A DNA stretch of 64,000 bases. Source: an uncultured Bacteroidales bacterium (GTDB taxonomy: Bacteria; Bacteroidota; Bacteroidia; Bacteroidales; Muribaculaceae). Location: assembly GCA_947644715.1 (NCBI GenBank), contig CANSAP010000005.1, forward strand, positions 29,256 through 93,255, in the 5' to 3' direction. The notes under the pieces were generated by a model, which was given only the letters and a program-made list of their open reading frames with translations, searched no databases and was not told the DNA's origin. Below, piece after piece: positions 15,220 to 59,561 of this stretch. The position numbers and the translations under genes are program-made. Numbering within the stretch: position 1 is the first letter of the stretch; each line of letters begins with the position of its first letter.

Positions 15220-15251
15220 TTTGGAATCCACAAAAATATCGATTATCTTTG
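15220..15251 (+). promoter_or_regulatory. Bacteroidetes-type promoter
   Basis: TTTG (15220-15223), a 20-bp spacer, and TATCTTTG (15244-15251), in an AT-rich stretch. It lies 32 nt before the lipoprotein start at 15284. Confidence 0.78.
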
Positions 15252-15283
15252 CAGCGAAGTATCAACCCAAAAACTCTCGACCA

Positions 15284-16042
15284 ATGAAACATTTCCTCTC
15301 GTTCATCGCTGTCTTAGGCCTTCTGCTGACTGCTTGCAGCAGCGAAGAGCCGGCTATGCCTGATGGCGCTATGACCCGTAGCACTGAACAGGCTGATATG
15401 CCCCATGTCAGAAAAGCTGACTTCGATAAATATGTGTCCGGCAAAATATGGACTTCCCTCGCAACAGAGTCGGATCCTATCTCTCCGACAACATTTGTGA
15501 ATGCCTACGGCGCATACGACCTATTGCCATGGAGCGGCACGTGGCACTCACGCAGAGGATTCCGCATTTCCGGCGACCGTTATCAGCAGTTTGACCAGAT
15601 GGGACCCGGTTGGGATGACCGGAACGGGCCTCGTATGCAAATCAATTCTTGCAGTTTTGTATATGACGAAACTACGGGAATGCTTACTTGCAGCGACTGC
15701 ATCAATTATTTTTCCGCACACCCGCAATCGCTGTATGTCGAGTCAGTGTCGGAGGATAGGATTGTAATTCGCGAAGAGTATGGCTGCCTGCCGGTAGGCT
15801 ATCGCGGAGACATCAATGAGGAATGCAGCGGAGAGATTGACCCGGAGAGTTATTTCCGTACTGAATACCATGCAGTGCCCCAACAGGAGGAGGCAAAATG
15901 GTATGGCTCCTATACCGATATCCGCCTTTGGAGGCAGATAGTCAACTCTCCGGAGTATCAGCTGCAACCGACTCAGTCAATCTTAGAACGCATCCGGGCT
16001 ATCCAGCTTCAAGATATCGAACTCTTGGAGACTGCAATCTGA
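15284..16042 (+). CDS. lipoprotein of unknown function
   Basis: 252 aa. The ATG at 15284 gives a lipoprotein signal (LLLTACSS; Cys about residue 18); the in-frame ATG further upstream at 15221 lies inside the promoter. The mature protein has aromatic- and charge-rich segments (ISGDRYQQFDQMGPGWDDRNGP, VYDETTGMLTCSDCIN) that suggest a compact beta-rich domain, but I do not recognise the family. Base use is less GC-rich than in the neighbours. It ends just before the repeat locus and is convergent with the RsmF-like gene. Confidence 0.68.
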   Translation: MKHFLSFIAVLGLLLTACSSEEPAMPDGAMTRSTEQADMPHVRKADFDKYVSGKIWTSLATESDPISPTTFVNAYGAYDLLPWSGTWHSRRGFRISGDRYQQFDQMGPGWDDRNGPRMQINSCSFVYDETTGMLTCSDCINYFSAHPQSLYVESVSEDRIVIREEYGCLPVGYRGDINEECSGEIDPESYFRTEYHAVPQQEEAKWYGSYTDIRLWRQIVNSPEYQLQPTQSILERIRAIQLQDIELLETAI

Positions 16043-16156
16043 CAACAGCGCCCACACCCGGGGCTTCAGTTTTTGTTGAATCCATATTTTGGCTCACCCA
16101 CACTGACGATGGCGGTCAGCTCCCCGGATTTGCTTTCGAATGTCTGAGAGTGTGTG

Positions 16157-16181
16157 TCAAAATTCTTACTGAAGCAAACGC
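16157..16181. repeat. 25-bp flank repeat shared with the 58-kb repeat locus
   Basis: The 25 bp here are identical to 58100-58124 and sit just left of the palindrome in both loci. They form the left border of the shared repeat family. Confidence 0.8.
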
Positions 16182-16183
16182 AT

Positions 16184-16380
16184 GGCGCGGAGCGCCTATC
16201 CCTTGTTAGCCGGGGGGCTTCAGCCCCCCGGTCGCCCGGCAGACAGATCCAGCCCCGGAAGGGCTGCCCAATACATTGACAACCAACGATATAGGGCAGC
16301 CCTTCCGGGGCTGGGTTGTCGCTACATGCATACCGGGGGGCTGAAGCCCCCCGGCTAACAAAGGATAGGCGCTCCGCGCC
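16184..16380. repeat. 197-bp nested palindromic element (repeat copy 1)
   Basis: The outer arms 16184-16231 and 16333-16380 are 48-bp inverted repeats matching at 47 positions. Inside, 16250-16269 and 16294-16313 are a perfect 20-bp inverted repeat. Each outer arm contains two smaller palindromes: GGCGCGGAGCGCC and CCGGGGGGCTTCAGCCCCCCGG. The RNA or single strand would fold into a cruciform-like structure with side hairpins. No transposase is present. It lies between two convergent genes (ends at 16042 and 16594). The right half recurs, in inverse orientation, at 58161-58270. Confidence 0.9.
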
Positions 16381-16562
16381 ATTCAGCGTCGGGTTCACGT
16401 TTTGACACACTCGCCCTCATTAAGCGTCGGGTTTACGTTTTGACACACACTCCCTCATTCAGCGTCGGGTTCACGTTTTGACACACCCGCCCTCATTAAG
16501 CGTCGAGTTTACGTTTTGACACACTCCCTCATGCAGCGTCGGGTTCACGTTTTGACACACTC
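16381..16562. repeat. five tandem 38-bp units in an alternating A/B pattern
   Basis: Units begin at 16381, 16419, 16457, 16495 and 16531 (lengths 38, 38, 38, 36 and a final partial unit). Each has the core AGCGTCGGGTT(C/T)ACGTTTTGACACAC. Units 1, 3 and 5 share a C-containing variant (ATTCAGCG or ATGCAGCG...GGTTCACG); units 2 and 4 share ATTAAGCG...GTTTACG, giving a 76-bp higher-order period. There are no spacers, so this is not a CRISPR array. With the palindrome it fills the 551-bp gene-free gap 16043-16593. Confidence 0.88.
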
Positions 16563-16593: not shown

Positions 16594-17967
16594 TTAGAGA
16601 TTGCGAATGCGCCAGGGAGCGGGATAGAGGTTGTTGGCGCGATTGCCGAGATTCTTCAGGAAGCCGAGGGGGAGTCCGGCGTAGGTAGCCAGCAGATAGC
16701 CTCGCGGTGCGTCCGGCGAGAGGGTGAGTGGCTGACGACGCAGGTAGTCAAGCGCTTGCTCTCGGCTCAAGGAGCATGAGGGGAAGTGCTCCGGATTCAA
16801 TTCTCGACTCAGGGCGAGAGCCTGGTGAGGTATCAGGTCACGCCCTTTTTCAGTGACGAGCGGAATGCCGGCCTGAAGTACTTTGGTCTGTGAGGCGAGC
16901 TGCTGATAGAGCGGGAGATAAGCCTTCGGAATAGCGCTCCATTCCCCCTCGCCGATTGGCACCGGTTCATAAGCGGAAGGGGTGCGAAGTAATTCGCGCA
17001 GCCCTGAGGGTGACGCCTTGCCGCTGCCCCCTTTCCTTTTCTTGGAGGGGCGGGGAGTGATGCGCTGACCGTTACCCGGTTTGCGCAGCATGGAGAGAAA
17101 GAGTCCCTCGCCGCGGGTGAGGTGAGGCATGAAGCGCAGGGCATGCAGATCCGGCAGACGGGAGGCACCTATCCCCCACTCAGTCGGACAGGGTATTTCG
17201 ACTGACTCCGCGCCATATTCGTGCATCAGGAATCTCACCTGCATCTCGTCTTCCGCAAGGTTGAAGGTGCAGGTGGAATAAATGAGTATTCCCCCCGGGC
17301 GCAGTGTCGGCCATAGATTGGATAGAATCTCTTGTTGCAGAGTGGCACACTGCCGCACGAGTCCCTGACTCCACTGCGAGCGGGCAGTCTCATCCTTGCG
17401 CATCATTCCCTCGCCGGAGCAGGGGGCATCCACAAGAATCAGGTCGAAGCATTCGCGCATTGCCGAGAGGCGTGCGGTGTCTCCCTGCGTGACTATTACA
17501 TTGGGAAGCCCCCACTTCGTTAAATTCTCAACAAGGATTTGCGCCCTGCGGGCATCATATTCGTTGGCCACCAGCAGACTCCCCTCCGGCAGTGCGTCGG
17601 CGGCCGCGGTGCTCTTTCCCCCGGGTGCGGCGCAGGCATCGAGCATGGTCAGCTCCCCCGGGAGCAGCGTGGCGGCATGAGCCACGGCATGAGATATGAA
17701 CATTGAAGAGGGGTCCTGCACATAAAAGGCGCCGGCATGAAACTCCGGCATCAGAGTGAATTGCGGTCTGTCGGTCAGTCGGCGGGATTGCGGATGCCAC
17801 TCCACCGGCTCACCTTCCGGCAGGGGAGACGCAATCGGGCGCGCCGGATTCATTCTGACGGCTACCGTAGCCGGTTCATCAAGCGCCCGGCAAAGTGCCT
17901 GACACTCCTGCTCGCCAAGCAGCGAGCGCATTTCATCGATAAATCCCTGTGGTATCTCAGTAGTCAT
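16594..17967 (-). CDS. rsmF: RsmF-like 16S rRNA (cytosine-C5) methyltransferase
   Basis: 457 aa. The NOL1/NOP2/sun catalytic core spans about residues 90-300: the SAM-binding motif DACAAPGGKST, VANEYDARRAQILVENL, and the two Cys motifs of m5C enzymes, DAPCSGEGMMRKD and YSTCTFNLAEDE (catalytic nucleophile and releasing Cys). A C-terminal region resembling the RNA-binding domain of RsmF-type enzymes follows. By homology it methylates 16S rRNA, position C1407 in E. coli numbering. Its ATG overlaps the stop of the S41 protease gene (ATGA), making it the last gene of the parC operon. The 3' end abuts the 38-bp repeat array. Confidence 0.85.
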   Translation of the reverse strand: MTTEIPQGFIDEMRSLLGEQECQALCRALDEPATVAVRMNPARPIASPLPEGEPVEWHPQSRRLTDRPQFTLMPEFHAGAFYVQDPSSMFISHAVAHAATLLPGELTMLDACAAPGGKSTAAADALPEGSLLVANEYDARRAQILVENLTKWGLPNVIVTQGDTARLSAMRECFDLILVDAPCSGEGMMRKDETARSQWSQGLVRQCATLQQEILSNLWPTLRPGGILIYSTCTFNLAEDEMQVRFLMHEYGAESVEIPCPTEWGIGASRLPDLHALRFMPHLTRGEGLFLSMLRKPGNGQRITPRPSKKRKGGSGKASPSGLRELLRTPSAYEPVPIGEGEWSAIPKAYLPLYQQLASQTKVLQAGIPLVTEKGRDLIPHQALALSRELNPEHFPSCSLSREQALDYLRRQPLTLSPDAPRGYLLATYAGLPLGFLKNLGNRANNLYPAPWRIRNL

Positions 17968-57537: not shown

Positions 57538-58026
57538 ATGAAAAAGTATCTGTACACACTTCTGACCATGCTGCTCTGCGCAACCTTCGGCGCACAGGCC
57601 GCCAACGACAAAAACGCTAAGGAACAAGCCTTTACAAATCAGGTTTCAACATTCTTGAAAGGTGAGGGTTACGCCCCCACAATCGACTCTGACGGCGATG
57701 TGAAATTCAAGTACCAGGGTGACACCTACTATGTTACGCCCGAGGAATATGGCGACGGCTTCTACATCAAGCTCTTCGGCTTCATGGGCTGTGCCGACAC
57801 CTCCCGCCGTGGCATACTGGAGTCATGCAACAAAGTGGAAAGCGGCTTGAAATTCCTGCGCTGCTATGTTACTAACGACGGCGAGAACATCATCTACGAA
57901 TGCGCCGGGTATTTCAGCAATCTCTATCAGTTCAAACTGATGTTCCCCGACTTCATGGACGTGCTCCAGAAGGCTGACGACCGTCTTAAGAAAGCTTACG
58001 CGGAATACGAGCGCGAAAACCGTTAA
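57538..58026 (+). CDS. small secreted protein, YbjN-like
   Basis: 162 aa with signal peptide (MKKYLYTLLTMLLCATFGAQA). Mature part: VSTFLKGEGYAPTIDSDGDVKFKYQGDTYYVTPEE, then LESCNKVESGLKFLRCYVTNDGENIIYECAGYF, ending in a helix (FMDVLQKADDRLKKAYAEY). The 'hydrophobic helix plus strand with GDVKFKYQG' pattern recalls the YbjN / type III chaperone-like fold. It is 34 nt after the kinase gene, probably co-transcribed, and could be a ligand or sensor partner of the kinase; this is inference. A perfect 17-bp hairpin follows. Confidence 0.7.
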   Translation: MKKYLYTLLTMLLCATFGAQAANDKNAKEQAFTNQVSTFLKGEGYAPTIDSDGDVKFKYQGDTYYVTPEEYGDGFYIKLFGFMGCADTSRRGILESCNKVESGLKFLRCYVTNDGENIIYECAGYFSNLYQFKLMFPDFMDVLQKADDRLKKAYAEYERENR

Positions 58027-58043: not shown

Positions 58044-58085
58044 GCGTTAGCCCACACCCCTGCCACAGGGGGTGTGGGCTAACGC
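58044..58085. terminator. 17-bp perfect hairpin after the YbjN-like gene
   Basis: GCGTTAGCCCACACCCC (58044-58060) and its exact complement (58069-58085) around an 8-nt loop. There is no T-tract. It lies directly before the second copy of the palindromic repeat, in a convergent intergenic region. Confidence 0.65.
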
Positions 58086-58099
58086 ACCAATAGGGTGTA

Positions 58100-58298
58100 T
58101 CAAAATTCTTACTGAAGCAAACGCTTGAGGGTGTGTCAAATTGCGAACCCGACACTGAATGGCGCGGAGCGCCTTCCCATTGTTAGCCGGGGGGCTTCAG
58201 CCCCCCGGTATGCATGTAGCGACAACCCAGCCCCGGAAGGGCTGCCCTATATCGTTGGCTGTCAATATATTGGACACTCCTTCATGCAGCGTCGGGTT
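58100..58298. repeat. second, half-size copy of the palindromic repeat family
   Basis: 58100-58124 is identical to 16157-16181. An inverted 38-bp unit lies at about 58127-58160, then 58161-58270 matches the reverse complement of the right half of the 197-bp element, including the GC-rich palindrome CCGGGGGGCTTCAGCCCCCCGG. The element then breaks off before its second half. A partial direct 38-bp unit (ATGCAGCGTCGGGTTC) sits at 58283-58298. The locus fills the 289-bp gap between two convergent genes (ends 58026 and 58316), like the 16-kb locus. Confidence 0.85.
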
Positions 58299-58315: not shown

Positions 58316-59506
58316 TCAGAGCGTTTCGGCGTAGAGCAGGGCGCGGGCTTGCAGAAAGTCGCGGCGCGACTCGAGGTAGTTCTTGTAGTGGGTGGAGAAA
58401 TCCTCCTGCGCCGTCAGATATTCAAGCACGGTGATGGTCCCCTTGTCGAGCGCCATGCGCAGATACGCCTCATTGGAATCCTTGATGCGGTTGTAGAGCG
58501 CGTCCATGTCGGCACAGGCGCGCTGCAACTGCAAGGCGCGCTCATATTGCGCCTGCTTCTCCAGACGGAACTGCTGCTCGGCGCTCTCCAGCTCAAGCTC
58601 GCCCGCCACCTCAAGCGCCTTGGCCGCCTTCACCCTGCCACGGTTTCCCCACAGCGGAAGCGACAGTGTCACCCCGGCACCATGATAGGTGCCATCCTTA
58701 ACTATCTGGCCAATGTAGCCCACCGAAAATTCGGGCAGCCCCTCCTTGCGACGCAGATTCACGTCGGCACGACTCTTCTCCAAATTCGCACGCATCACCT
58801 CAAGCGCGCCGCTGCGTGCGGACGCCTCGCTGAGCCAGCTCTCAAAATCCGAAGGAAGCTGAGCCTGCGGCCAATCCTCGGGTAGCTCCATAGCGGCACC
58901 ACCGTTAAGGCTTTCCACCGCGCGGCGAGCGGCGTCAAGATTCACCCGCGCCATCTTCAGCTCATTGCCCACTGAGAGTGTCTCCAGTTCTATCTTGTTA
59001 TAGTCCAGCTGGTTGATTGCCCCTGACTCAAGAGCCTTGCCGGCTGCGGCAAACATCGTCTGCAACCGCTCATTCTGCCGCTCCATCTCCCTGACCATCG
59101 CCCGGCAATAGCTGTATTCAATCAGCGCCTTCTCGGCCTGAAGCATAATCTCGGCACGGGAGGCTCGCAACGAAGCGCGGGCTACACCCACGTCAGCCTT
59201 CGACACACGGCTCTTGGCGCCGCTCAAAGTGGCGAAATCGAAGCCTTGGGTCACCTCAACGTCAGTCTCATTCGGAAGCTCATGGCCGGAGCCGAACAGA
59301 TAGGCCACACTCACCTCCGGATTCGGAAGCGAGAGACCGGTGCGGGCATCAAGAGCCGTGGCATCAGCCGTGGCGCTCAGGGCGCGGAGCGCAGCATTAT
59401 TTGACTCAATCGATTTTATCTGCTCAGGATACAGACTCTGAGCCGAAGCGGGCAATGCCGCTAAACCCGCCATGATGGCAGGCAGGAGTTTATGCAGGTT
59501 TTTCAT
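58316..59506 (-). CDS. TolC-family outer-membrane factor, orphan
   Basis: 396 aa from the ATG at 59506, which begins the signal peptide (MKNLHKLLPAIMAGLAALPASA); upstream ATGs at 59533 and 59539 add residues without signal character. Two outer-membrane efflux (OEP) repeats span about residues 45-220 and 230-390, mostly long helices (VEVTQGFDFATLSGAKSRVSKADVGVARASLRASRAEIMLQAEKALIEYSY, EFSVGYIGQIVKDG). TolC-like trimers join inner-membrane exporters to the outside. No HlyD-like adaptor or RND/ABC pump is adjacent, so its partner must be elsewhere. The stop lies just beyond the second repeat copy. Confidence 0.85.
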   Translation of the reverse strand: MKNLHKLLPAIMAGLAALPASAQSLYPEQIKSIESNNAALRALSATADATALDARTGLSLPNPEVSVAYLFGSGHELPNETDVEVTQGFDFATLSGAKSRVSKADVGVARASLRASRAEIMLQAEKALIEYSYCRAMVREMERQNERLQTMFAAAGKALESGAINQLDYNKIELETLSVGNELKMARVNLDAARRAVESLNGGAAMELPEDWPQAQLPSDFESWLSEASARSGALEVMRANLEKSRADVNLRRKEGLPEFSVGYIGQIVKDGTYHGAGVTLSLPLWGNRGRVKAAKALEVAGELELESAEQQFRLEKQAQYERALQLQRACADMDALYNRIKDSNEAYLRMALDKGTITVLEYLTAQEDFSTHYKNYLESRRDFLQARALLYAETL

Positions 59507-59561
59507 CGTCAGATTCTTATGCGAGGCATTCATCGTCAATCAGAAGCCGTCTTATGCGGGG

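Follow-up and report, generated by a model that had tools for sequence, protein, structure and literature searches.

A nested palindrome of a Muribaculaceae genome as a probable REPIN-like pair of three-hairpin units linked to Y1/HUH transposases

What is the layered, gene-free palindrome that lies between two convergent genes of an uncultured Bacteroidales bacterium, and by what means might it have spread? The locus (positions 16,184 to 16,380) is part of a contig stretch of 64,000 nucleotides, hereafter called the window, from a member of the Muribaculaceae. With a probability of roughly three in four, we conclude that the element consists of two inverted compound units, with no gene between them, of the type associated with subclass-1.2 transposases, and that it spread as a REPIN-like passenger of a Y1/HUH transposase acting in trans. 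We read the whole as a REPIN-like arm pair enclosed in a shell of terminal repeats, and the sequence comparisons below suggest that a transposase mobilizes it.

Measurement upheld the nested architecture that an initial annotation had claimed for the locus. The outer arms (16182-16232 and 16332-16382), described as nearly perfect, comprise 51 nt that are 98% complementary. The inner inverted repeat (16249-16273 and 16290-16314), described as perfect, extends over 25 nt at 96% and includes a perfect run of 21 nt, and the smaller GC-rich palindromes were found within both arms of the 16184-16380 element. The RNA fold of the element has an energy of -184.4 kcal/mol compared to -85.2 kcal/mol (sd 4.8) for shuffled sequences (z = -20.8; 0 of 200 shuffles). 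Each half of the palindrome forms a compound unit, roughly 85 nt long, that consists of a hairpin with a CGGAG apex (h1), a GTTA(A/G)CC motif, a GC hairpin (h2), and a further hairpin (h3). The units at 16182-16265 (+) and 16298-16382 (-) form an inverted pair with a gap of 32. Because each half represents one three-hairpin, transposase-associated unit, the layering of the fold is accounted for. Furthermore, the segment from 16184 to 16380 is only the middle of a larger element with an outer terminal-repeat shell. The features are as follows, where R1 is the covariance model described below.

15221-16042 (+): upstream convergent ORF, no Pfam family
16147-16181 (+): left shell end, terminal repeat AGAGTGTGTGTCAAAAT with subterminal TCTTACTGAAGCAAACGC (search with the terminal-repeat pattern)
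16182-16265 (+): left compound unit, h1-GTTAGCC-h2-h3 (R1, 33.7 bits, E 3.2e-7 in 64 kb)
16184-16196: hairpin h1, GGCGCGGAGCGCC (from the sequence; aligned to R1 helix 1)
16210-16231: hairpin h2, CCGGGGGGCTTCAGCCCCCCGG (GC palindrome; R1 helix 2)
16250-16266: hairpin h3, CAGCCCCGGAAGGGCTG (R1 helix 3; one of four pairs is non-standard here)
16267-16296: central loop, the position of the gene in transposase-bearing relatives (comparison with loci L205, L221, L282, and L287)
16298-16382 (-): right compound unit, inverted (R1, 35.3 bits, E 1.2e-7)
16380-16562 (+): 38-bp tandem array, the right shell end iterated in about 4.9 units (TRF)
16594-17967 (-): downstream convergent gene for an RsmF-like 16S rRNA methyltransferase (PF01189, E 2.9e-42; PF17125; PF13636)
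58092-58124 (+): shell end of the 58-kb copy (94% to 16149-16181 over 33 nt)
58159-58243 (+): single compound unit, the half copy (R1, 33.9 bits, E 2.9e-7)

Both loci lie between convergent genes, as had been stated: 15221-16042 (+) and 16594-17967 (-) surround the palindrome, and 57538-58026 (+) and 58316-59539 (-) surround the half copy at 58 kb. This half copy was said to have a left flank in common with the palindrome. The half copy exists, and 33 nt of flank agree at 94%; between that flank and the arm, however, lie 34 additional bases that constitute another shell end. Directly to the left of the half copy, the window also carries a perfect 17-bp inverted repeat with an 8-nt loop (58044-58085) that is unrelated to the arms. 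An Rfam scan of the 64-kb window at the gathering score returned two tRNAs and left the element unmatched, and the same approach applied to loci L205, L221, and L155 (E of at most 0.1) gave a single sub-threshold match, to mir-87 (27.2 bits versus 49).

Model R1 was derived from 13 transposase-flanking arms at 7 loci in 5 genomes (G074, G091, G056, G037, and G110), and both the host and its nearest relative, G016, were excluded from its construction. It has 86 positions and three helices, and its E-values are rough. The underlying alignment (A1) was used with a structure given by hand, and two rows from L224 that are misaligned in h1 were kept. Alignments A2 and A3, in which h2 is out of register, were left unused. 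In A1, whose rows are non-independent because both arms of one gene are included, 95.9% of cells pair and 9 of the 15 pairs vary in both partners, figures attained by 0 of 500 shuffles. Sliding the partners abolishes this covariation.

The central result of our study is that R1, which holds no sequence from the host or G016, recovers both halves of the palindrome and the half copy. These are its three matches in the 64-kb window (E 1.2e-7 to 3.2e-7), and the next matches have E-values of 5.5 (5.7 bits) and 8.6. In 79 unrelated bacterial loci (589 kb), R1 gave one match, with an E-value of 0.99. Each of these control loci had been fetched for an exact match to the 17-mer CATGGCGCGGAGCGCCT, which holds h1. 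This 17-mer occurs exactly in 103 stretches of genome contigs, nearly all from unrelated bacteria, of which 80 were fetched and one (L120, a G016 contig) was left out. A search of viral contigs with the h2 pattern yielded 0 matches.

The host carries three Y1_Tnp genes, all of which encode the HUH motif and the Y---Q--HH signature on which assignment to subclass 1.2 rests. All three exceed the NCBIfam cut-off for IS200/IS605 transposases and remain below that for REP-associated tyrosine transposases. Inverted arms (GTCGCGGAGCGAC..TTAGCCGGGGG..AACCCCGTGAGGGGTT) lie on both sides of the gene on contig C19, and each part of its arm occurs in the same order as in the element: GTCGCGGAGCGAC, then ATTATTAGCC with a GC hairpin, then AACCCC..GGGGTT, and then the gene. 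There are 31 matches to the C19 arm in the host genome, itself included, and the few inspected are mostly single arms. These arms score weakly with R1 (E 0.095 for one, the other unlisted), and a sequence search of the PDB with the C19 protein returned nothing at E 0.01. The layout in which one repeat family lies on both sides of a Y1 gene is present at C19 and at 30 of the 35 genus loci described below, and the exact letters of the element family bracket none of the three Y1 genes in the host assembly. The cognate enzyme might therefore be missing, be unassembled, or act across families. A second host subclass-1.2 gene (L204; G000:C36:21800-23843, where G000 is the host genome) is bracketed by CCGCTTCGGAGAAGCGG hairpins that are unmatched by R1. 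Similar hairpins are found near the G016 palindromes (L163 and L165), and therefore these probably constitute another repeat family.

Across the genus, HUH and Y---Q--HH were observed at 36 of 38 strong Y1 loci, with L181 and L234 outside the pattern. We then compared the 300 bp upstream of each gene with the reverse complement of the 300 bp downstream, leaving out L233, which is at a contig end. Inverted flanking arms were present at 30 of the 35 loci tested when a local score of at least 33 was applied, a threshold chosen after the first scores had been seen; in a shuffle test, 31 of 36 loci outscored every one of 100 shuffles. Among controls, 0 of 45 window genes reached this score (maximum 19), as did 1.3% of 1190 cross-locus pairs. 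The five loci below the threshold (L183, L185, L203, L226, and L230) include the host gene on C55; arms are one-sided at L185 and short at L226. Furthermore, of 27 held-out subclass-1.2 genes, 16 have an R1 match (E of at most 0.01) no more than 400 bp away; at 13 of these 16 a match points at the gene, and at 5 there are matches on both sides. No such match was present at the other 11. Even up to E 0.1, R1 gave no match at 20 loci of the other Y1 type (Y-x-x-x-N) or at the subclass-1.2 locus L246. Other inverted flanks occur at three or four of those 20 loci (L208, L236, and L247, plus L239 with one start choice). At L208 (G016:C33:19500-22300), the Y1 gene of the other type (NHVH, YITENP) is flanked by GGAGAGGAGGTTTCCAACCTCC repeats, a distinct type of repeat that goes with this other Y1 class. 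A REP-type tyrosine transposase had been suggested as something to look for, and a Y1 transposase is indeed linked to this kind of unit, by the C19 layout and by the 30 of 35 genus loci.

Full DNA matches to the element family were confined to the host, with partial ones in G016, when 111 genus genomes were searched and up to six candidates were scored in each. The G016 palindromes have the same layout with other letters and other outer ends, and R1 detects them at an E-value of about 1e-8. Arms recognized by R1 were found in at least 48 of the 111 genus genomes (E of at most 0.01; host and five model genomes included), in at least 113 of 397 family genomes representing at least 20 of 30 genera, and in at least 64 of 393 order genomes representing at least 51 of 207 genera (E of at most 0.001), where the three samples overlap and part of the candidates was scored per genome. 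Within the genus, arms are present in 18 of the 25 genomes that carry a strong Y1 gene and in 30 of the 86 others (Fisher p = 0.001), and the corresponding values are 13 of 20 versus 30 of 86 (p = 0.02) when the five model genomes are removed. Seven of the 25 genomes with a strong Y1 gene are devoid of arms. Nine genomes (G043, G046, G063, G064, G067, G072, G076, G084, and G105) have arms and no Y1 match, three of them with 16 to 34 arms, and in further arm-bearing genomes the only Y1 matches are weak or of the other type.

Arm pairs that point at each other about 470 bp apart would be expected to hold a gene. At all four loci fetched for this spacing, the arms enclose a Y---Q--HH gene, and there are five such genes in total (L279, L282, L287, and two in L288). 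They come from G275, G378, G704, and G616 (twice), which belong to other genera and families, and for L287 and L288 the prediction was recorded before the sequences were fetched. Arms beside subclass-1.2 genes are now seen in the genus of the element, in two more genera of its family, and in two genomes that belong to other families. Seven other genomes contain 17 inverted pairs that enclose no gene and have loops of 2 to 68 nt: G037 (5), G074 (3), G017 (2), G244 (2), G349 (2), G626 (2), and G452 (1). Two of these 17 pairs lie within 600 bp of the gene in L221.

When the element was compared by BLAST to the host genome (2.4 Mb in 73 contigs), 97 matches were obtained, and the other copies are up to 98% identical, which points to recent spread. 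After merging, 41 clusters remained, 40 of which include a segment of 81 bp or more; 33 of these 40 extend over 190 bp or more. Dispersal was therefore correctly proposed from two copies, and the picture of two copies is replaced by dozens. Contigs C3, C33, and C59 start inside a copy, and C6, C16, and C50 end inside one. At the 30 best-matching loci (29 distinct places), an ORF longer than 600 nt crosses the copy once, and neighbors were called on both sides at 23, of which 15 are convergent, 7 are co-directional, and 1 is divergent. In the window, 5 of 29 gaps of at least 30 bp are convergent, and the element occupies two of these five (Fisher p = 6e-4 against 15 of 23, with orientation based on long-ORF gene calls).

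There was no excess of target duplications among 17 clean copies, whose boundaries are uncertain (mean 0.29 versus 0.37 for swapped flanks). Inverted complementarity of the outer flanks is modestly elevated (2.76 of 6 versus 2.03 for swapped flanks; p = 0.007) in 17 copies with readable ends that were picked by eye. Loci L001, L003, L004, L005, L007, L013, L015, L019, L020, L025, L026, and L044 were left out because of arrays, contig ends, or doubtful ends. A search for a clean empty site at two loci found none, all neighbors being non-syntenic; G016 has the RsmF gene end without the element, but the adjoining gene differs. A scan for terminators and promoters gave results at chance level (1 terminator found, shuffles mean 0.9). 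One host copy of the element (C26:8642) is inside a unit of another repeat family, that of the C19 arm. In L018/L213 (G000:C26:8389-8899), the C19-family unit around this copy is without the 5' half of h2, and the arrangement looks like a nested insertion.

The initial annotation mentions neither the 38-bp array nor the shell of terminal inverted repeats outside the arms, whose left repeat is AGAGTGTGTGTCAAAAT and whose right repeat is GTTTTGACACACTC. Allowing up to two mismatches, the terminal pattern GAGGGTGTGTCAAAAT occurs 58 times forward and 47 times in reverse in the host genome, and the reversed-pattern control gave 0 in both directions. The array has a higher or lower unit number in other copies, with about 5 units at window positions 16380-16562 and 9 at G000:C12:51099-51417 (L042). 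Since this number varies among copies, the array could be a VNTR for strain typing. Forms of 83 bp that have shell ends but hardly any core also exist (L039, L040, and L043), and L026 shows that the core is found in both orientations relative to the shell ends. Facing shell-end pairs with room for a transposase gene were absent from 20 stretches fetched around shell ends, although contig ends could hide one. Two long ORFs lie between outward-facing shell ends of neighboring copies, and both encode acyltransferases: these acyltransferase-3 genes (PF01757) are at L042:1663-2754 (-) and L050:2086-3138 (-), each between the ends of adjacent copies.

Two DDE_Tnp_1 genes, which we take to be IS5-like, are present in the host, and one sits between ends starting AGAGTGTGTTTA. 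They are close together at a contig end (L206; G000:C1:141500-147921), where one has a stop inside the match and one is located between AGAGTGTGTTTACTTTTAAC-type ends. The shell ends and those of one host DDE element are alike in their first bases only, a resemblance by which a second route of movement is possible. Relative to the definition of a MITE, terminal inverted repeats are present and a target site duplication was not seen in the 17 clean copies with uncertain boundaries. No full-length IS with the ends of the element was found in the 20 stretches.

Several known systems resemble parts of this arrangement. In IS200/IS605 elements of the IS608 type, the hairpins are subterminal and on the same strand. 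The common ground is the Y1 enzyme, including the three host genes above the NCBIfam cut-off; the arms here are instead inverted, and dispersed gene-less arms outnumber genes in the host. Another member of the Bacteroidales is Porphyromonas gingivalis. Its BrickBuilt and PgRS MITEs share terminal repeats and a minisatellite with the element, and BrickBuilt, with 19 copies in ATCC 33277, is intergenic, whereas the terminal letters are GAGACC... and a three-hairpin core is not described in the available portions of the source (PMC4596501). TIRtrons (TIRYT) also have long inverted repeats that bracket a Y1 gene, some of them dispersed as families (excerpts of PMC3733652), but 20 of 26 belong to subclass 2.1, mostly with a GGGG[AT][CG]A[CG] motif, and the enzyme type here differs (excerpts of PMC6006769).

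The closest parallels in form are REPINs or BIMEs and the REPtrons of TnpA-REP (RAYT), which, in excerpts of PMC6006769 and PMC3733652, likewise consist of two palindromic units in inverted orientation around a short loop, occur in many intergenic copies, bracket a Y1 transposase gene with their units, and have family-specific letters. The REPIN unit of these excerpts is one hairpin of 20 to 40 nt, whereas the unit here is about 85 nt with three hairpins, and the transposase here is of subclass 1.2 by signature rather than of class 2. A GT[AG]G 0 to 2 nt 5' of a hairpin foot is not observed: GCAT precedes h1, TTAG (GTTAG) precedes h2, GATC precedes h3, and the arm consensus has GTTAACC. Because the element appears REPIN-like in its working and is without this feature, we do not file it as a canonical REP. 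The likeness to REP/REPIN or MITE families drawn in the initial annotation therefore holds in that the element is REPIN-like (40 host clusters, 64 of 393 order genomes, and the Y1 link), and its unusual layering is explained by the three-hairpin units. The roles in termination, as a structured RNA, or in chromosome organization that the same annotation put forward are candidate functions. The genes resemble TnpA-Y1 subclass 1.2 as described in 2018 in their Y---Q--HH signature, their occurrence in Bacteroidetes, and their low gene copy number. In the excerpts of that description (PMC6006769), the subclass is listed with REP "no", without IS properties, and generally without typical terminal secondary structures, in contrast to the inverted arms at 30 of 35 genes and the R1 matches near 16 of 27 held-out genes reported here. 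The same excerpts state, for IS608 and TnpA-REP, that single-stranded DNA with hairpins is the substrate of Y1 enzymes. No prior description of compound REPs for subclass 1.2 was recognized among the literature matches listed, which are mostly open-access and include no preprints.

The main alternative, which we consider improbable, is that a DDE (IS5-type) insertion sequence gave rise to the element as a conventional MITE, in which the AGAGGGTGTGTCAAAAT terminal repeats move and the hairpin core is cargo or a chance capture. The conservation of terminal repeats in 105 places versus 0 in controls, the 83-bp forms with little core, the DDE_Tnp_1 gene between ends starting AGAGTGTGTTTA and its companion, the position of copy C26:8642 inside a unit of another family, and the precedent of BrickBuilt MITEs with IS5-type GAGACC... 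ends and a minisatellite (excerpts of PMC4596501) all agree with such a history. However, this account sits poorly with the lack of a target duplication excess, with the acyltransferase identity of both long ORFs between outward-facing ends, and with the lack of a facing pair with transposase-sized room in 20 stretches, where contig ends could hide one. Moreover, G016 keeps the core layout in a different outer sequence, and the match of the core to transposase arms of other genera and families is left unexplained.

We judge it unlikely that the element is a bidirectional terminator or structured RNA that is selected at convergent gene ends and has no current mobility. Its convergent setting (15 of 23 two-sided copies versus 5 of 29 window gaps), its fold (z = -20.8), and the inverted, locus-specific character that its outer flanks tend to show in 17 hand-picked copies (2.8 of 6 versus 2.0) are compatible with this role, but the terminator scan was at chance, full DNA matches are confined to the host and partial ones to G016 among up to six candidates scored in each of 111 genus genomes, and the near identity of copies points to recent spread. 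We consider it very improbable that the palindrome is a self-folding sequence that spread through template switching or recombination, with convergence on GC hairpins behind its likeness to transposase arms. The core in both orientations at L026, the local slippage evident in tandem arrays, and the nine arm-bearing genus genomes without a Y1 match could be cited for it. Opposed to it are the specificity of R1, which gives three matches and no other with E below 5 in 64 kb and a best E of 0.99 in 589 kb of unrelated DNA in which each locus has an h1-type hairpin, and the enclosure of genes at four of four loci. The pairing of arms at each locus also suggests that arms and gene co-vary in families.

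We therefore favor the gene-less pair of subclass-1.2-type units as a REPIN-like passenger. Under this proposal, a subclass-1.2 transposase would recognize and cut the units as single-stranded DNA in trans, and might then copy or move them. Hairpins h1, h2, and h3 would be the recognition hairpins, read as single-stranded DNA perhaps while the lagging strand is open, and the GTTA(A/G)CC at the foot of h2 is a possible guide. Two inverted units may suffice for copying, as has been proposed for REPINs. In this species, the REPIN core would have become set in a second, MITE-like shell with AGAGGGTGTGTCAAAAT ends, perhaps of the IS5-family type, whose right end seems prone to tandem duplication. 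The main sites of settlement for the whole 260-bp palindrome would be gaps between convergent genes, in which it is tolerated or possibly aids transcription termination.

On a broader view, to which we incline by a small degree, the substrate that the orphan subclass-1.2 HUH transposases have so far lacked would be the compound three-hairpin units. They would form an order-wide REPIN system with the code h1, GTTARCC, h2, h3 that is independent of GTAG and that has here merged with an IS-type shell, making it doubly mobile. Subclass 1.2 thereby gains a candidate substrate, and an open question becomes a cutting assay. Likewise, the GC palindromes between Bacteroidales genes, where the contigs of the host break, gain an identity and a model for annotation.
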